Shown piece by piece: positions 4,294 to 36,226 of a stretch of 37,982 nucleotides of DNA (the stretch's first letter is position 1; each line of letters opens with the position of its first letter). The notes under the pieces were generated by a model. The model saw only the letters and a list, made by a program, of their open reading frames with translations, was not told the origin of the DNA and did no database searches. Source of the stretch: a virus; the IMG/VR virus record IMGVR_UViG_3300020419_000002, positions 1 through 37,982 of that record; one strand, given 5' to 3'. Made by a program: the position numbers and the translations under genes.

Positions 4294-4740
4294 CTAAGTA
4301 AAATATATCCATAAGAAAAATATAATTATACTAGCAATCATAACAACTAATGCACCAATAGCTAGTGATTCAATTAATTCTTCTTTATTCTTTTTAGCAA
4401 GTTCAATTCTTTCTTTTCTTTTCTTTCGTGCTTCTGCACAAAATTTAACATAGTCTGTATATAAATTTGGTCTACCATATAACATCATAAATTCACGGAG
4501 TTCTTCTTCTTGTTTTTTAATTTTTTCTAAAGCCATAAATTCTTCTAAATCAGAAAACTGAGTTCCTTTTAATGAATGATATATACTATTCTTTTTACTT
4601 GCTCCTTTTTCTCTAAGTTCTTCTTTAGCTGAAACGAATTTACTTATAGCTTCTCCAGCATCTAGTATTTCTCTACCATTTTGAATAGTCTTTTTGATAA
4701 CTGCAAAGGCACTATTAGCAAGAGCCAATTCTGCAATCAT
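4294..4740 (-). CDS. Conserved phage protein with C-terminal membrane anchor
   Basis: A 148-residue protein. It begins with a hydrophobic-alanine segment (MIAELALANSAFAVIKKTI), continues as a long charged helical region rich in Glu and Lys (about 20-120), and ends with a single membrane helix (about 125-147). I recall similar proteins in marine T7-like phages near the holin and terminase genes, but no proven function. A role in lysis (spanin-like) or as a membrane-bound virion factor is possible. It is tightly packed, 3 bases from the preceding gene. Confidence 0.75.
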   Translation of the reverse strand: MIAELALANSAFAVIKKTIQNGREILDAGEAISKFVSAKEELREKGASKKNSIYHSLKGTQFSDLEEFMALEKIKKQEEELREFMMLYGRPNLYTDYVKFCAEARKKRKERIELAKKNKEELIESLAIGALVVMIASIIIFFLWIYFT

Positions 4741-4743
4741 AAC

Positions 4744-4929
4744 TTAACCTATTCTCATAAATATGGTAACACACAAGGATACTATTGAAACGATACTTGC
4801 CATTACCATAGCTTCTAACCTCCATAATCTTTTGTCTAAAGTTGATAGTTTGTCAGAAACAGCTTTAGCTCTTTCAGCACATTCTCTTTCGTGTGCGACT
4901 AATTCAGCTTGTGTTTCTTTGATGCCCAT
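4744..4929 (-). CDS. Holin-like protein (coiled coil plus C-terminal membrane helix)
   Basis: A 61-residue protein. Residues 1-38 are charged and helical (ETQAELVAHERECAERAKAV, then LSTLDKRLWRLEA), and residues 41-59 form one membrane helix. This layout resembles XhlA-type haemolysin/holin proteins. It follows the tail-fibre genes and precedes the terminase genes, exactly where T7 has its holin gene 17.5. Its ATG overlaps the stop of the preceding tail gene. A holin would time membrane opening so that the amidase reaches peptidoglycan. Confidence 0.6.
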   Translation of the reverse strand: MGIKETQAELVAHERECAERAKAVSDKLSTLDKRLWRLEAMVMASIVSIVSLCVTIFMRIG

Positions 4930-7064
4930 TAAAATACTATTGGTTGGAATGTTGATTGGTTGTTACCACTATAATCACCAGTTTGACCAGTATTACCATA
5001 CCCAGTAGAATATACTCCACCATCATCAGTAATAATTGTGTAACCGTTTTCTGAAGTATCGTGACCAAGAGAACATATATCAACTATTGGTTTTTGAAAT
5101 TTTGCTTTTTGCCAAGTGTTTTGGTTAGTTGTATTACCAATACCTAAGTTACCTACACCATTATACCCAACTCCAAATACTTCATTGTCAGATGTTAGAG
5201 CCATTACAGACTCATAGTTTCCACCACCTGACACAACCATTTTAGTTATATTCGTAGGAGCAGTTGATGATTGTGTAAATGTACTTCTGTTAGTTGTGTC
5301 ACCTACACCTAGTTGTCCATAACTGTTGTACCCACTAGCATATACTTCACCATTAGTTTTTCTAAACCAAGCATTACTATTTCCGTTAGATGATTTTGTT
5401 GCAACTATTTCAGCTACATTAGTTTCAATTTGTGTAACAGCTTGTGTTGTTGATGTTGTACCGTTACCAAGATGCCCAGCATAAGGATAACCCCAACCAT
5501 ATAAAGTTCCATTATCACTTAATGCAAACCAAGAATGTCTTGTTGGAACACACTTAATTATATTATTACTGTTTGAATAAAAAGTAGTTATTTCTGTTGG
5601 TACAGAATAGTTTGTGTTTGTATTGAAACCATTTTGATAATCTCCAGCATAACCCCAAAAGTAAACTCTAAATGTTACTGGTGTTTGTGTTAAAATATCC
5701 GTAGTTGAACCAACAGTACCACCACCAACTAGTGCATCTCCATATACTGCACCCAATCCAATATGAGAAGTGTATCTATCACCACTTGCAAATATCTTCC
5801 AAAATTTAAGAGCTGTCTGAGAAACAGCACCAAATCTATTTGAGTTTGTTGTAGATGAGTTTCCTAATTGACCGTGACCATTATAACCACAACCGTGAAG
5901 TGTTCCATCAGTACATAATACCATTGTAGAATTGTAACTTTGAGAACAAACAGTTTGTGCTATTTCGTATGCTTCTTTACCATTCAATGAATTGGCTGAA
6001 TCAGCAGTAGCATCATAAGGTGTTAATCTATTTGTTGAAGTTCCATCACCAATATGTGAATAACCGTTATAACCCCAGTTATATAAATGTCCATTATTCC
6101 CTATAATGTGCATATTGTAATAATTAGATTTTATAACTGCATCTCTTATAGTACCGTCAGACTCTATCTTTATACCAGTAAAATTATTTGAATTATCAAA
6201 TGCTGGAGTTACTGGAGCTTTCCTAGTTGTTGTAGTGCCATCTCCTAAAGTACCGTATGAGTTTGTACCCCAACCTCTCATACTACCATCTTCCATTACA
6301 CAAAAATTTCTTCTGTAAGATTGAGTATTAAAGTTCCATAGAAACTTACCTTTAACACCACTTCTGTAATTCGTATCACCCCAAACTGGAAGTTGTGTAG
6401 TACCGTCTATTTTTAATACTTGATTGGCATTACCAGTTGGAAGTCTTTGTAATTGTGTACCATCAAAATAAATTAAATCTCCTGAATTTTGACCTACCCC
6501 TAGACTACCTTGAGCAAGTAAATTCCAATTAGATGTTGTTGTTGTACTTGTAGCATAACTTGGTGTATTAGCTGTTCCACCCATTCCTGAGTGATTACCA
6601 CAATAGTAATAAAGCAAAGGAGCATTAGAAGCTACTACTATTGTTACGGTAGCTCCAGCAGAACCAGCAGTTCCACTAGATGTTACACCAGTTGTATATT
6701 CAGTACCTGAATTATGAGTACCATTACTTGTTTCTGAAAATTTTAAAGGGTGGTTGGAAAGACTAGAATCCGATACATCAAATATATAAGTATTACCTTC
6801 GTATAGTTGTAATGTTGGTGTCTTTACACCATCAATGTAAAAATAGTTACTGCCATAATATTGTTGTACAGTTACTGTTAAATTACTTGTTGTTGGACTA
6901 GTTGTAGAACTAGTTGCAGTTGGTGCAGTTCCACTCGTATTGTCTGTTATACATACAAATGAATCACCAGTATATTCCACAACATCTTGTGAATTATAGG
7001 TTGTACTGGCATCATAGCTTCCTTTCCAAGTGAAAGCGACTTTGCCAAGACTTACAGTAGTCAT
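4929..7064 (-). CDS. Tail protein with cupredoxin-like domain and RCC1 beta-propeller
   Basis: A 711-residue virion protein, probably receptor-binding. Residues 5-40 resemble a small carbohydrate-binding fold (WKGSYDASTTYNSQDVVEY). Residues about 62-163 look like a cupredoxin: LYEGNTYIFDVSDSS, then H105 in SNHPLKFS, then C155, H158 and M161 in YYCGNHSGMGG, the ligand set of a type-1 copper site. From about 255 to the end lie seven clear RCC1-type repeats (such as WGTNSYGTLGDGTT) and one degenerate copy, predicting a seven- or eight-bladed propeller. It follows a second RCC1 protein and the gp17-like adaptor, and has AAAGGAGC before its ATG. Confidence 0.85.
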   Translation of the reverse strand: MTTVSLGKVAFTWKGSYDASTTYNSQDVVEYTGDSFVCITDNTSGTAPTATSSTTSPTTSNLTVTVQQYYGSNYFYIDGVKTPTLQLYEGNTYIFDVSDSSLSNHPLKFSETSNGTHNSGTEYTTGVTSSGTAGSAGATVTIVVASNAPLLYYYCGNHSGMGGTANTPSYATSTTTTSNWNLLAQGSLGVGQNSGDLIYFDGTQLQRLPTGNANQVLKIDGTTQLPVWGDTNYRSGVKGKFLWNFNTQSYRRNFCVMEDGSMRGWGTNSYGTLGDGTTTTRKAPVTPAFDNSNNFTGIKIESDGTIRDAVIKSNYYNMHIIGNNGHLYNWGYNGYSHIGDGTSTNRLTPYDATADSANSLNGKEAYEIAQTVCSQSYNSTMVLCTDGTLHGCGYNGHGQLGNSSTTNSNRFGAVSQTALKFWKIFASGDRYTSHIGLGAVYGDALVGGGTVGSTTDILTQTPVTFRVYFWGYAGDYQNGFNTNTNYSVPTEITTFYSNSNNIIKCVPTRHSWFALSDNGTLYGWGYPYAGHLGNGTTSTTQAVTQIETNVAEIVATKSSNGNSNAWFRKTNGEVYASGYNSYGQLGVGDTTNRSTFTQSSTAPTNITKMVVSGGGNYESVMALTSDNEVFGVGYNGVGNLGIGNTTNQNTWQKAKFQKPIVDICSLGHDTSENGYTIITDDGGVYSTGYGNTGQTGDYSGNNQSTFQPIVF

Positions 7065-7086: not shown

Positions 7087-8778
7087 TTAAAATTGAACTC
7101 TTTTCGGAGTCCATTGGTGACCGTCAATATTATTACTTGCATAATAATTGTTATAACCAAAAGCATATAAAGTATTACTTTCAGTTAAGGCAAGAACTGT
7201 AAAATATCCAGTTCCACTTGATGAATAACCACCAACATCATAGTCAATGATTTTCTCAGGTATTTTTACTGGTGCTAGACCATTAGGTGTTGTTGCATTG
7301 TTATAGCTACTTCCATAACCAGCTCCGTCACTTCCTTGACTTGTCGCACCCCAACAATATAATATTCCATCACTAGTAAGTGCTGAAAAGTGGCTACCAT
7401 AGTGTCCACCTAACATATTAATTTTAGTTACATTTGTAATTGGTTGATTATTATAATCTCTATACTGATTCCAAGCAGTTGTGTTACTACCAGTAGGACT
7501 CGTACTGAATCCACTATAACCCCTATGCCATATTGTACCGTCAGTTCTTCTTGAAAGTATTCTACCATATCCACCATTCATAGCAATTATCTCTGCACTA
7601 CCAGTTTCAATAGGGTCGCTAGGCACAACGGTGTAGCCATTTTGTCCTTGTGAACCCCAACCAGCTTGGTTTAATCCACTATTAGTTAAGTTAGTAACAT
7701 TCCCATTTTGATGTAAAACCATAAGAGTTCCATAGTATTGAGAACCAGCTACCCAATGACCGTCGTGAATGTTTGCAGTTATATCAATAACTGGAGAACC
7801 AACTGAGTTAAGCATAGTTACTTTTTGAAAAGTAGTTCCAGTAGGTTGTAAACCGTAATTACTGTGATTACCACTTGTCCATAAAGTATCATCTTCTGTC
7901 TGTAAACAAGTCCAACCATAAGTAGATGGGAGAGAAAACATTCTTTTTATTGTGCCTAATTCTTCACCAATTCTTTTTACTGTATATACAAAGTTAGTAG
8001 TACCATCTCCTAGTTGACCATAGTTGTTTTGACCCCAACCATATACTTTCCCACTTTGAGTAAGCATCAATATTTGACCATATCCATACCAACCGTAGCC
8101 ACAATGTACATCTACAATTTTTTCATTTTGTAATTCAGGTAATACATCATACATTCTTTTTGGTGTTTGTTGATTAGATAAACCACTTGTATTTGTATCT
8201 GTTCCATCATAAGCACCCCAACTCCAAGAATGACCGTTTGTATCTATTGCAATTTTTAGTGTTGCATTTCCATATAATTTATCAATTACAGTTCCTTTAG
8301 GAAAAGGAAGCATAGCTGGTCTAAAAGTATTACTGTTCTGTCCGTAAACTCCAGTTCCGTGTCTACCATCATTATTTCTTCTACCCCATTGTCTAACTGT
8401 ACCGTCTGACATAATAACCATAGGAGTATCATAAAAAGTTCCTAAGTAGTTTCCTCTATGTGGACTATTGTTTCCAGAACTCATCAATCTTTTTACATAA
8501 GTTCCATTTCTTTCATCTGTGTGTCTAAACTCAATTCCTGAGTTTAATTTAGAATGTAGTAACTGAGAATTTGTACCACCAACAGAAGTTCCACCAGTAA
8601 GTAAATGACCTTTACTTGTAACATCTTGTTGACCCAAAGCAAAAGCAACTAAGTTTCCTGAAGCATCAATTTTATATGTTCCTGAGTTATAATAAACAAC
8701 ATCATTCTCTATATATGTTCCAGTAGGCGAATATTGCCCTTTCCATCTATAACCTAGTTTATCTATATTTATTTGCAT
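7087..8778 (-). CDS. RCC1-repeat tail protein (second beta-propeller)
   Basis: A 563-residue protein that shares its design with the next gene downstream. The N-terminus (YRWKGQYSPTGTYIENDVVY) matches the same small carbohydrate-binding-like module. The rest contains about eight diverged RCC1-type repeats, for example GKVYGWGQNNYGQLGDGTT and GTVRQWGRRNNDGRHGTG. The cupredoxin-like domain of its neighbour is absent. The gene lies between the gp17-like adaptor and the other propeller protein, so all three probably form the tail-fibre apparatus that contacts the host surface. The specific ligand is unknown. Confidence 0.82.
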   Translation of the reverse strand: MQINIDKLGYRWKGQYSPTGTYIENDVVYYNSGTYKIDASGNLVAFALGQQDVTSKGHLLTGGTSVGGTNSQLLHSKLNSGIEFRHTDERNGTYVKRLMSSGNNSPHRGNYLGTFYDTPMVIMSDGTVRQWGRRNNDGRHGTGVYGQNSNTFRPAMLPFPKGTVIDKLYGNATLKIAIDTNGHSWSWGAYDGTDTNTSGLSNQQTPKRMYDVLPELQNEKIVDVHCGYGWYGYGQILMLTQSGKVYGWGQNNYGQLGDGTTNFVYTVKRIGEELGTIKRMFSLPSTYGWTCLQTEDDTLWTSGNHSNYGLQPTGTTFQKVTMLNSVGSPVIDITANIHDGHWVAGSQYYGTLMVLHQNGNVTNLTNSGLNQAGWGSQGQNGYTVVPSDPIETGSAEIIAMNGGYGRILSRRTDGTIWHRGYSGFSTSPTGSNTTAWNQYRDYNNQPITNVTKINMLGGHYGSHFSALTSDGILYCWGATSQGSDGAGYGSSYNNATTPNGLAPVKIPEKIIDYDVGGYSSSGTGYFTVLALTESNTLYAFGYNNYYASNNIDGHQWTPKRVQF

Positions 8779-31538: not shown

Positions 31539-32004
31539 TTAGTGATTTAATTTCCTTCACCCAATTACTTGGAAATAATTTTTTCGTTGAAGCAATACAA
31601 TGATAATCAAATCCGTAATGCCTACACCAATCTCCATAAGTTGTTTTACTTTTCTTACCAATTTTTATTTTGGAATTAGAAAATATAAACCTGACTTTGA
31701 TGTTAGGAAACTGCTCCTTTATGATTCTGTGTTTCTTCCTATCAGCTGTAACAAATCTGCCTTTAGCTTCAATAAAGATAGCTTCACCTAAATCATTGGT
31801 GTAGTTAAACACAAAGTCAGGTCTGTAAAATCTCTTCTGAGCTGGTTGCATAAAATAAATTTTAGCACCTTCATAACTAAAGTTTAGTTTCCTAGACTTC
31901 AGAAATCTATAAAGGTCTTTCTCCAACCCTGACTTGAGATTCGGTTTGCTAGAAGTCGGCATCAGATGGTTTGACTTCTTGCTCTTCATCAAGTGAGAAA
32001 CCAT
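31528..32004 (-). CDS. Endonuclease I (T7 gp3-like Holliday junction resolvase)
   Basis: The frame gives 158 residues (T7 gp3: 149). Catalytic residues E28 (SGLEKD), D63 (YRPDF), E79 and K81 (IEAKG) correspond to E20, D55, E65 and K67 of T7. DRKKHRIIKEQFPNIKVRFIF and TYGDWCRHYGF also follow T7 closely. The enzyme resolves branched DNA before packaging and helps degrade host DNA. The start is uncertain: ATGs at 32004, 31989 and 31962 are in frame and none has a strong Shine-Dalgarno site. It overlaps the SSB gene. Confidence 0.92.
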   Translation of the reverse strand: MVSHLMKSKKSNHLMPTSSKPNLKSGLEKDLYRFLKSRKLNFSYEGAKIYFMQPAQKRFYRPDFVFNYTNDLGEAIFIEAKGRFVTADRKKHRIIKEQFPNIKVRFIFSNSKIKIGKKSKTTYGDWCRHYGFDYHCIASTKKLFPSNWVKEIKSLNAN

Positions 32005-32524
32005 CTAGCTTATCTAGTAGATTATCCCCTTGTGAACTGGTATATTCTTTAAGGTCAATGACTTGTACTATTCTAGGTTGTAGTGTTACCCCAGCTCCTA
32101 TTGCTGGTGAGTAGTATCTTTTTGGAAGATATACAATCCTAATAGTAGAACCATTACCAATAAGTTTATCCATTGGTATTGGATTTTTTTGAGAGTCAAC
32201 TATTCGTATCCTTCTCTCATATCTCTCATTGGTCTTACTATTTATACCACTAGCTTTTACCTTAAAGTTAAAGACATAATCAGCACCATCTTCATTAAAT
32301 GGTTTAGGTGCTTCTTTAACTGTCTTACCTTGATTGCTTCTTTTAGCATCTTCAAGAGAGTCAACTAGAGCTTTCTCAATATCAGAAAGCATATCAGTTG
32401 CTTCTTCCTTTTTGACTTTAAGTTTTACTGTATATAGTCCGTCTTTATCAAACTTCGTATCAGCAACTTGTAGTCTAGGGTAAAGTGCTTCACCCTGAGA
32501 ACTAACTTTTAGTTCATCTGTCAT
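31949..32524 (-). CDS. Single-stranded DNA-binding protein (T7 gp2.5-like)
   Basis: A 191-residue protein (T7 gp2.5: 232). The OB-fold region includes ADYVFNFKVKASGI and TIRIVYLPKRYYSPAIGAGV. The C-terminus is acidic and ends in Phe (EEQEVKPSDADF), the tip that T7 gp2.5 uses to touch polymerase and helicase. It coats single-stranded DNA at the fork. It is the first gene after the phage promoter at 32552, and AGGAG lies upstream of the ATG; T7 also has promoter phi2.5 here. Confidence 0.9.
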   Translation of the reverse strand: MTDELKVSSQGEALYPRLQVADTKFDKDGLYTVKLKVKKEEATDMLSDIEKALVDSLEDAKRSNQGKTVKEAPKPFNEDGADYVFNFKVKASGINSKTNERYERRIRIVDSQKNPIPMDKLIGNGSTIRIVYLPKRYYSPAIGAGVTLQPRIVQVIDLKEYTSSQGDNLLDKLDGFSLDEEQEVKPSDADF

Positions 32525-32551: not shown

Positions 32552-32567
32552 CTAAAGTGTCACCTAT
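32552..32567 (-). promoter_or_regulatory. SP6-like phage promoter upstream of SSB
   Basis: The minus strand reads ATAGGTGACACTTTAG, very close to the SP6 promoter core. It overlaps the end of the RNA polymerase gene and lies 28 bases before the SSB start. Predicted first base G at 32552. The identical 16-mer recurs at 14287-14302, and a one-base variant at 25861-25876. Confidence 0.85.
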
Positions 32568-34237
32568 TATATACAAAAGAACTCTGAGTCTAAAACACTA
32601 TCTAGTTTCAGATTACCTTTTGCTGGTAATTCAGGAAACTTTTTCTTGTTTTTATCAGACAACATATCGTACATATATGATGACCATTGTTTCAGCAAAT
32701 CCTCTGAGTACAAATCAATAAAAGATTTTCTCAAAGACTTCGCCATTATGTTATAGTCATTAGCAACAACACCAAAGCTATCGTGTATAATACTAAAACT
32801 ATCAACCCCTTCTTCACTAGCCATAACTACTGACTTCATTAATAAACAAGCATCAATACTATGTATAAGATTAGGTGCAACAGATTGAGATGTTGCTCGT
32901 GGGCAAATCTTATTTGTTTCTCTTTGTATGGATACTTTAATTATACTATCACCCATTTTAGTTTTGACTCTTTTGTTTTCCATCTTATAGTTTAACATTT
33001 GTACTGGTGCATTTAACGGTGTTATCCAAGTAACTGGTAAGTTCTCACTTGCAACTAATCTCGCTATTGTTTGTACATATTTCATAACTTGCCTTGCTCC
33101 AACAACAACCTCACCAATACTATCCCAAACTATTGGTGTAAGATATTGTGTAGCTTGAAACAACTCATCACCAAATGGGTGTTGTTTATTCTTTTCGTTA
33201 AGTTGTTTCGTAACTTCATCTTCTAAGTATTGCCTACAACTATATCTAGTTAAACCGTAAGGTAAACACATTGTTGACTTCTTACATATCTTTCTATCAA
33301 TACCCCAAGCTAACCATTTACAAGCTAAATTATCTTTTCGTTTTTGTAGCTTAGATAAAACTCTTTCAGCAATCATACCATATACATCTTGTGGTTTATT
33401 ATCAGGCAATAAGTTAGTTGCCTTACCACCCACCTCATCTCTCAACATAGCTGAGTAATGTTGTAAACCTGAGTTACTACAATCAGCTTGTATTGGTAGT
33501 GACGATATAAATTGTAAAGAAAACTTTTCATCAGCTAGTTTTTTATACTCGCAACACCAAGCAAAAAATGTAAAAGGTTTATCAGCTGTTGCCCACCAGT
33601 TATCATCTAATGGATTCTTTGCTGTTGATAAAATTCTTTGCTCGTTATCTTTTACCCACTTCAGTCTAGTATCAATATCTTCTTTATCCGTTTCTCCGTA
33701 CAACCCAGCTCCAGCTATTTGTAATCTCATTAAAGCATCATCAGTTTTCAATCGCTTACCAAACTTAAATGTTAATAATGTTCTTGACCAATCAGCTCCT
33801 TGTGGATTTAACAATGCTGGTTTAGGATATACTCTCCATCTAAAATCATATTGATGTGGAAAGAATAAACTCTTATCCAACATCTGACTTGCTATTCTTA
33901 GACTCTGATGTACTTGAATGAACTTAGATTTTTCTCTGTGCTGTGCATTATAAATTTTATTTGCTTTTCTTTTCCAATCTTTCAGAGCTTCTTTATCATT
34001 CTTTAAATCACCAACCTTAGGTGGCAACTCAAGTGTGTCAGGATTAACTGGTAAGTTGCCTAGTCTATAATTATTTTTAAGGCATACTTCTATCAGGTTA
34101 TAAACATCTTTATTAATAATCCATTCAGTATTTTGTATGGTGTTAATAGCTTTAAAAATAATAGGCATATCTTTACACCTATTATTTGCTTCCTCAAGTA
34201 TGTTTCTTGTTCTTGTTTTTTGTAGATTGTAGTGCAT
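32567..34237 (-). CDS. Phage RNA polymerase, catalytic (C-terminal) part
   Basis: A 556-residue frame covering the palm, fingers and thumb of a T7-type single-subunit RNA polymerase. Catalytic residues are all present: D252 (ADCSNSGLQH), R315, K319 and Y327 (RKICKKSTMCLPYG), H485 and D486 (IIHDSFG). The end LPAKGNLKLDSVLDSEFF matches the T7 C-terminus. Together with the preceding frame the length is about 886, as for T7 (883). It has its own GAGGT site five bases before ATG 34237, so it may be made as a separate subunit. A one-base error in an A6 run is the alternative. Confidence 0.93.
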   Translation of the reverse strand: MHYNLQKTRTRNILEEANNRCKDMPIIFKAINTIQNTEWIINKDVYNLIEVCLKNNYRLGNLPVNPDTLELPPKVGDLKNDKEALKDWKRKANKIYNAQHREKSKFIQVHQSLRIASQMLDKSLFFPHQYDFRWRVYPKPALLNPQGADWSRTLLTFKFGKRLKTDDALMRLQIAGAGLYGETDKEDIDTRLKWVKDNEQRILSTAKNPLDDNWWATADKPFTFFAWCCEYKKLADEKFSLQFISSLPIQADCSNSGLQHYSAMLRDEVGGKATNLLPDNKPQDVYGMIAERVLSKLQKRKDNLACKWLAWGIDRKICKKSTMCLPYGLTRYSCRQYLEDEVTKQLNEKNKQHPFGDELFQATQYLTPIVWDSIGEVVVGARQVMKYVQTIARLVASENLPVTWITPLNAPVQMLNYKMENKRVKTKMGDSIIKVSIQRETNKICPRATSQSVAPNLIHSIDACLLMKSVVMASEEGVDSFSIIHDSFGVVANDYNIMAKSLRKSFIDLYSEDLLKQWSSYMYDMLSDKNKKKFPELPAKGNLKLDSVLDSEFFCI

Positions 34238-35186
34238 TTGATACCTCTTTTAAATTGTTATCCTTATTGTATTTTTTGCCATAGTATCCACCGTCAAAAA
34301 AATTACTCCATTCTTTTGGTGGCATAAGCATAGGCATAAACTCAGGGTGAAGTGCTTCGTTAGACATATTAAATTTTTGTATGTCATTCATCAACTTAGA
34401 AGTTGCTTCAACATATTTAATAGATTTATTTCTAGCAACCTTTCTAGTCTGACATTTAACTAGTCCAAGTATACTAGCTAACTCTATACACTTTGCACCA
34501 AGATGAACTCGTTCAACTTTATCCCACTTAGCAAACTCTAAGTTTGCTTTGTTCATATAATAAACCCAAACATTTTTCTTATAGACATACTTGTTTTCTG
34601 TCATAGGAATTGACTTGCTACTTGACATTCGTTTAGCAATCTTTCTAAATGTTGGATTATCTTTTGTTTGGAATAAAGTTATTCTTGATTCCATCTCAAG
34701 AGAATTGGCAATCTTAACAGACAATCTATTTAAAGTTTGTCTATGAGATATACCGTCAATACAAGATTTCAAAATAATTAAACTACAATTATCCCACTTA
34801 CTTGTGTTATCGTCTTTTAATTTTTTTCCTTCAAAATGTTTTGACTCAAGACATTGGCATATAAGTTTACTAGCAATCTGATGTCTACCAGCTTGACCAC
34901 TCAATGCAATCTTAACCCAGTTATTTATCTGTTCACTTAAAAGAGATACATATTTTTGTAAGAGTAATACTCCTACTAGGGTTGTTGATTCTTGTTGTTT
35001 AGCTAGTGCATTGTTCCAGTTTCTTTTGCTCCTATCTATACCACCTCGCAACATCTTTTCTTCCCATTCTAATTCTTGCTTAACCATATCAGTATAATCA
35101 GAATTAGTTTTGAACTTACCACCAACACCAACTCGCAATAGTTCTGCTAAGTGTTCGTCAAGTTCATCAAGATTGTGTCTTATCAT
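34194..35186 (-). CDS. Phage RNA polymerase, N-terminal domain part
   Basis: A 330-residue frame matching the N-terminal domain of T7-type RNA polymerase. The end, EFMPMLMPPKEWSNFFDGGY, is equivalent to the T7 segment VVPPRPW...GGGYW. After this the frame runs 26 more residues and stops at 34194, while the next frame continues the homology in the +1 frame after a 44-base overlap. The domain binds promoter DNA and nascent RNA in T7. AAGGAGCATAT precedes the ATG. It lies directly after the integrase region, as in integrase-bearing pelagiphages. Confidence 0.9.
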   Translation of the reverse strand: MIRHNLDELDEHLAELLRVGVGGKFKTNSDYTDMVKQELEWEEKMLRGGIDRSKRNWNNALAKQQESTTLVGVLLLQKYVSLLSEQINNWVKIALSGQAGRHQIASKLICQCLESKHFEGKKLKDDNTSKWDNCSLIILKSCIDGISHRQTLNRLSVKIANSLEMESRITLFQTKDNPTFRKIAKRMSSSKSIPMTENKYVYKKNVWVYYMNKANLEFAKWDKVERVHLGAKCIELASILGLVKCQTRKVARNKSIKYVEATSKLMNDIQKFNMSNEALHPEFMPMLMPPKEWSNFFDGGYYGKKYNKDNNLKEVSNALQSTKNKNKKHT

Positions 35187-35343
35187 ATATGCTCCTTAGT
35201 TTAAGTTTAAGTTCTGTAATCTTAGCTGATACTTCTTTACATTTTGTTATGTCGTAAACCTTATTATCGTCACTCCAAATATGTTCCTCTAACTTTTCAA
35301 ATGCCCAAGCTAGTAGTTCCATTTCATCTCTGTTTAACTGCAT
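35167..35343 (-). CDS. Small hypothetical protein between integrase and RNA polymerase
   Basis: A 58-residue helical protein (MQLNRDEMELLAWAFEKLEE, later KEVSAKITELKLKLRSIYD). The ATG at 35343 is preferred because it follows the integrase stop by four bases and is preceded by GCGAGTGAG, a variant of the early-gene motif; an in-frame ATG at 35373 would overlap integrase. Its end overlaps the polymerase start by 20 bases. No family is recognised. As a small charged protein next to the integrase, a directionality or regulatory role is conceivable. Confidence 0.6.
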   Translation of the reverse strand: MQLNRDEMELLAWAFEKLEEHIWSDDNKVYDITKCKEVSAKITELKLKLRSIYDKTQS

Positions 35344-35347
35344 TGGT

Positions 35348-36226
35348 TTACTCACTCGCCCTCTCCAACTCATTATGTAATTTACTCATCATCTTCTCAG
35401 TTGGTTTTGCATAATAAGTTAATGTAGTTTTAATATCTTTGTGACCCATAAAATATTGTACACTTTTAATATCAACACCAGCTTCAACTAATCTAGTACA
35501 ACAAGTATGTCTAGTTGAATACGGTGTATAACTTTCATCTAACATACTTGCCAACCTTACCTTCTTCCATAAATAGTTTAGTCTATTCTTATCATACTTT
35601 GGTACATACTGATTGTTGTGATTAAAAAAATATTCAACTTGTCTATTAAGATATACTGGTCGTGTGTGTTTAGTTTTACCACTATAAATATTAATAATTT
35701 TTGACTCAGACTTTAGAGCTTGTTGAACCTTCTGCATATCTAAACAATTAATTTCTATGTGTCGTAATCCAGTATTGATTGCAAACACAAACCAAGCATA
35801 AAAATCTTTATCAGGAAATAAATTATTTATATTAGCTTTAAAGTTTTGTTCTTGCTGTTTAGTAAATATACCTTTAGCTTTACAATCACTAACACTTACT
35901 CGCTGAACTTTAGGCATATAGTTTATTAACCTTAGATTGTTTGCTTCTTCTAAAATAATTTTTAATACTGACAATCTAAAATTAATACTACTACCTGACG
36001 GTTCACCACCTCGTTTTCTATTAGTAATTTTATTTGTTAGATGTACTTTAAATTTTTCTATTAGTTGATAATCAATATACTTAATATTTTTGTTATCAAA
36101 AAATTCTTTGATGTCTTTGTAATAAGTTTCAACTGACATCTCAGACGGTTTACCTCGCCACCGTTTATCAAATACATATTTATAAACCTTATCTAAATTG
36201 TAAGTTTCTTTTTTATTTATATTCAT
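35348..36226 (-). CDS. int: Tyrosine recombinase (phage integrase)
   Basis: A 292-residue site-specific recombinase. An N-terminal SAM-like core-binding domain (30-105) precedes the catalytic domain with R155 (NTGLRHIE), K184 or K186 (SGKTKHTRP), R239 in YSTRH, H262 (MGHKD) and nucleophile Y271 (TTLTYY). The first histidine of the usual H-x-x-R box is Tyr236, a known variation. It would integrate the genome into the host chromosome, usually at a tRNA gene in pelagiphages. I found no tRNA-like attP core. The start has AGCGAGGAACAAAA upstream. Confidence 0.93.
   Translation of the reverse strand: MNINKKETYNLDKVYKYVFDKRWRGKPSEMSVETYYKDIKEFFDNKNIKYIDYQLIEKFKVHLTNKITNRKRGGEPSGSSINFRLSVLKIILEEANNLRLINYMPKVQRVSVSDCKAKGIFTKQQEQNFKANINNLFPDKDFYAWFVFAINTGLRHIEINCLDMQKVQQALKSESKIINIYSGKTKHTRPVYLNRQVEYFFNHNNQYVPKYDKNRLNYLWKKVRLASMLDESYTPYSTRHTCCTRLVEAGVDIKSVQYFMGHKDIKTTLTYYAKPTEKMMSKLHNELERASE

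Follow-up and report, generated by a model that had tools for sequence, protein, structure and literature searches.

Textbooks present T7 RNA polymerase as the model of a single-chain polymerase, and the locus described here raises the question of whether an enzyme of the same type is made by a phage as two separate proteins or whether an ordinary gene appears broken in the record. The window, by which is meant the whole 37,982-nt stretch of the IMG/VR virus record IMGVR_UViG_3300020419_000002, has two minus-strand open reading frames of 330 and 556 amino acids, which lie in different frames, overlap by 44 nt and are called rnapN and rnapC below. A first-pass annotation, made from the letters alone, had described the same two frames, each with its own ribosome-binding site and the second with GAGGT five bases before its ATG, and all of these elements are present. 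The polymerase of this phage is very probably composed of two subunits that assemble non-covalently, an association and an activity that we infer from the evidence discussed below. The relevant features of the window are as follows.

34194..35186, minus strand, rnapN, proposed N-terminal-domain subunit of the T7-type RNA polymerase, 330 aa (PF14700, PHROG 414, AlphaFold2)
32567..34237, minus strand, rnapC, proposed catalytic subunit with thumb, palm, fingers and specificity loop, 556 aa, starting MHYNL (PF00940, PHROG 414, AlphaFold2)
34194..34237, minus strand, the 44-nt rnapN/rnapC overlap, in which the rnapN tail is read in another frame
34243..34247, minus strand, Shine-Dalgarno GAGGT of rnapC, 5-nt spacer to the ATG
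35192..35197, minus strand, Shine-Dalgarno AAGGAG of rnapN, 5-nt spacer to the ATG (direct sequence reading)
34216..34221, minus strand, A6 run, earlier suspected of being an artefact, though it does not cause the split
35348..36226, minus strand, tyrosine integrase upstream of rnapN, the context of a temperate pelagiphage (PF00589, 68.7 bits)
31949..32524, minus strand, T7-type single-stranded DNA-binding protein (SSB) downstream of rnapC, synteny conserved (PF21265, gene order of isolates)

Profile searches show that the two proteins together account for a complete T7-type polymerase, as had been proposed from their combined length. rnapN matches PF14700 (RPOL_N) with 51.7 bits against a cut-off of 30.1 and rnapC matches PF00940 (RNA_pol) with 313 bits, while a search of NCBIfam gave no match. 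On the 816-position PHROG 414 profile, rnapN covers positions 3-277 (E 9e-39) and rnapC positions 262-814 (E 9e-179), so that the pair tiles the whole profile and nothing is lost. The catalytic residues are all kept, as the first-pass annotation had stated: rnapC has identical counterparts of T7 D537, K631, Y639, H811 and D812 in motifs A, B and C. The break also lies where it had been placed, near the border between the N-terminal and polymerase domains. In alignment with fused outgroups, the rnapC start MHYNL[VI]K corresponds to R-PLALVR of T7 at about residue 291, and rnapC is thus read in the ancestral frame; the rnapN tail that follows GGYY is new and variable.

Structure prediction agrees with this assignment. 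The AlphaFold2 models were made of rnapN and rnapC separately. The rnapC model (pLDDT 89.4) matches T7 RNA polymerase with a TM-score of 0.87. The rnapN model has moderate confidence (pLDDT 72.6, with the tail below 50) and matches T7 RNA polymerase chains with TM-scores of 0.56-0.59 and a best E of 8e-9, being closer to the elongation than to the initiation structures. When modelled alone, rnapN folds with low confidence over its C-terminal ~35 residues, as does rnapC over a few residues at its start, and these segments may become ordered only upon complex formation.

The window pair thus has the domains and catalytic residues of the T7 enzyme and tiles it from end to end, but it consists of two chains where T7 has one of 883 residues. 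It also differs from T7 in having Lys at the R632 position and the C-terminus FFC[IV]. By descent the window polymerase is a member of the T7-like family, although it is not a single-subunit enzyme. Across the clade, the position that follows the motif-B Lys, R632 in T7, is occupied by Lys in 110 of 118 members, the other eight being unmatched by the search pattern; every fused outgroup compared has Arg there, and N4 has Gln. The rnapC C-terminus of the split clade is FFC[IV] or YFCS and not the T7-type end.

Whether the split is a property of one record or of a lineage is answered by its relatives. Scans of IMG/VR and GTDB genomes, together with phage records, yielded both halves at 171 loci; these amount to 118 distinct junctions, drawn from isolated phages, contigs of IMG/VR and genomes of SAR11. 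The polymerase is split in 117 of these 118; the patterns of one scan included the rnapC start and were therefore biased toward split forms, and the scans independent of the start agree. GenBank already annotates two polymerase genes in HTVC041P, Eyrgjafa, Gjalp, MedDCM-OCT-S30-C28, HTVC025P and Deep1-GF2-KM23-C739, and ten genome contigs labelled as SAR11 lineage also have the split polymerase, which they probably carry as prophages. The window and three relatives (L001-L003) form a lineage of their own with a 44-nt overlap, and their rnapC is ~54-58% identical to that of other split phages. Outside the clade, no break at the junction is seen in the homologues of Methylovorus, Aquisediminimonas and Achromobacter, nor in that of S42-C7 as far as its record runs. 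Salmonella phage LPST153, an otherwise ordinary T7-like phage, also has two polymerase frames, but the break is inside the catalytic domain and is probably an unrelated frameshift or error.

The anatomy of the junction is conserved at the start of rnapC and variable in the overlap or gap. In the 117 split junctions the start codon (ATG in 110, GTG in seven) lies at one homologous place and is always followed directly by H-[YF]-N. All 117 have a Shine-Dalgarno sequence of at least 4 nt located 5-10 nt 5' of this codon, against a background, taken from out-of-frame internal ATGs in the genes of the window, of 11% for at least 4 nt and 2% for at least 5 nt. The overlaps are 44, 32, 29, 20, 11 or 1 nt long and the gaps 1, 3, 5, 9, 131 or 497 nt. 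All overlaps of at least 11 nt (71/117) are in one frame relation, equal to that of the 1-nt gap, a pattern that would fit if an adjacent stop codon had been lost and the rnapN frame had then run on into rnapC. The gap of 497 nt, in HTVC025P (positions 4482-4978), has two small open reading frames that have no PHROG match, and the 131-nt stretch separates the halves in a phage designated L100. An intron or intein was considered and rejected, since there is no Rfam match at the junction in the window or in HTVC025P and most junctions are too tight to accommodate one.

The rnapC tree, which included 12 fused outgroups and was built by a quick method, with long outgroup branches, places all split forms on one side of a branch with 99% support, so that a single origin suffices. 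Selection has been maintained on both sides of the junction. Pairwise dN/dS between the window and two members of its lineage (L001 and L003) is 0.04-0.08 for rnapN and 0.04-0.12 for rnapC, and over all pairs where dS is measurable the ranges are 0.04-0.26 and 0.03-0.26. Judged by these substitution ratios, rnapN and rnapC are under strong purifying selection and neither is decaying. The conserved split, start codon and Shine-Dalgarno sequence, together with purifying selection on both halves, argue for translation of two polypeptides, and the separate translation suggested in the first-pass annotation is strongly supported.

The single exception is HTVC011P (KC465900), which as deposited has one continuous polymerase gene. 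It is nested within the split clade in the rnapC tree and, at the junction, differs by one inserted or deleted base from split IMG/VR contigs that are 99% identical to it. It also retains the rnapC start ATGCACTACAAT with AAGGA upstream, now out of frame. The one-base difference and the nesting imply that its fusion is not ancestral, and it has likely either arisen very recently or been introduced by an error in the record. Given the sequence as deposited, a fused polymerase may be tolerated. The first-pass annotation had looked to relatives with one continuous gene and no start site as the finding that would speak against two genes; of the 118 junctions, that of HTVC011P alone is continuous, and its start is still there. 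This suggests that a reference genome of ordinary appearance is the odd one out.

These observations are best accommodated by a polymerase in two parts. rnapN would provide the N-terminal domain, with the AT-rich-loop and intercalating-hairpin region, while rnapC would provide the thumb, palm, fingers, specificity loop and all catalytic residues. The two adjacent genes are presumably on one transcript, and initiation of rnapC at its conserved Shine-Dalgarno sequence and ATG would be either independent of rnapN or coupled to its termination. The two proteins would then join non-covalently to form one polymerase that transcribes phage genes. The split itself would go back to a single event at T7 residue ~291 that predates the divergence of the Fussvirus, Stopavirus and Chosvirus types. 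This model is favoured by the tiling of PHROG 414, the AlphaFold2 matches to T7 RNA polymerase and the sequence present between the halves in HTVC025P and L100. Its feasibility is indicated by N4 RNAPII (PMC4496689) and engineered split T7 RNA polymerases (PMC4299498).

The alternative that survives best is that the halves act separately, rnapC being active alone and rnapN serving as a detachable promoter or regulatory factor needed for initiation only. The position of the split near the border of the N-terminal domain and the thumb, which would allow stoichiometry to be set apart, and the start site that each half has for itself are in accord with this idea. The N-terminal domain of T7 RNA polymerase, however, belongs to the machinery of initiation and to that of elongation alike, and the halves are kept close together at every junction found; separate action is improbable on these grounds.

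Programmed +1 frameshifting in the overlap, which would yield a fused polymerase and make the two-gene reading secondary, is somewhat less probable still. Both frames are open across the 44 nt of the window with A-rich codons, and the longer overlaps have one frame relation, although the latter would also fit run-on of an older adjacent stop. Frameshifting would have no need for a conserved Shine-Dalgarno sequence and start codon, and the length and sequence of the overlap differ among relatives. Since 46 of the 117 junctions have a 1-nt overlap or none and two of them have 131 or 497 nt between the halves, it cannot be the general mechanism.

Decay of the polymerase gene, with rnapN or rnapC a non-functional remnant and transcription left to the host RNA polymerase, would agree with the term "fragmented" that Chen et al. 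used for the gene (PMC6811365), but it is very improbable in view of the purifying selection on both halves, the retained catalytic residues and the persistence of the split gene over a deep clade. A sequencing or assembly error, in which an extra base in the A6 run that had indeed been located inside the overlap breaks an ordinary continuous gene like that of HTVC011P, deserves practically no credence: the junctions that are split vary in sequence and geometry, the A6 run present in L001 and L002 is broken in L003 (84% identical in rnapC) and the gene is split there all the same, split relatives 99% identical to HTVC011P differ from it by a single-base indel, and no unsplit polymerase reads mapped to the phage genome in the study of Chen et al. 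2019 (PMC6811365).

The two-subunit polymerase can be placed beside several known systems. The gene split itself is already known, since fragmentation of the RNA polymerase gene was reported for HTVC019Pvirus group III pelagiphages by Chen et al. 2019 (PMC6811365), who noted it in a few relatives and gave no model of the enzyme. These phages (HTVC025P, HTVC041P, Eyrgjafa, Gjalp and S30-C28) are split at the same position as the window and have the same order of integrase, RNA polymerase, SSB and endonuclease I; their rnapC starts with MHYN[LF], or VHYNF in S30-C28, as compared with MHYNL in the window. A natural two-gene polymerase, of which the first-pass annotation knew no case, also exists in phage N4, where RNAPII (gp15/gp16) is a biochemically proven T7-like heterodimer encoded, like the window polymerase, by two adjacent genes (PMC4496689). 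The N4 split is at T7 residue ~453, after the thumb and DX2GR, and its N-terminal domain is truncated, whereas the split of the window is at ~291 and the whole N-terminal domain is kept. The first-pass annotation was correct that artificially split T7 polymerases work: two or more co-expressed fragments give active enzyme, with five seams and named split points that include 67, 179 and 601 (Segall-Shapiro 2014, PMC4299498). Those splits are engineered, while the pelagiphage split is natural.

Searches of open-access PMC did not return the extent of the split over more than 100 distinct junctions including a deep Chosvirus-like branch, nor the status of HTVC011P, the conserved start signals, the selection on the halves or the placement of the seam at ~291 versus ~453 for N4. 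A deep natural clade with two proteins adds a second split architecture to that of N4. It shows that evolution can tolerate a seam between the N-terminal and catalytic domains, and its subunit pairs, matched by nature, are a resource for split-polymerase tools. A bolder reading, that the polymerase is an obligate two-subunit enzyme throughout the temperate SAR11 phage clade, split once between the N-terminal domain and the thumb and independently of N4, is tentative and somewhat less probable than its contrary. If it is true, the level of rnapN, and hence promoter-dependent initiation, could be regulated apart from rnapC.

A few further observations concern the rest of the window. Its integrase, with 292 aa, is shorter than those of relatives, which have roughly 366-427 aa. 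For the group III pelagiphages of Chen et al. 2019 (PMC6811365), a tRNA-Leu carried by the phage at its attachment site is expected. ARAGORN found no tRNA in the window; the contig may be incomplete or the phage may use another attachment site. Among its other genes, the phage encodes at 7087-8778 on the minus strand a 563-aa protein with RCC1/WD40-like repeats.
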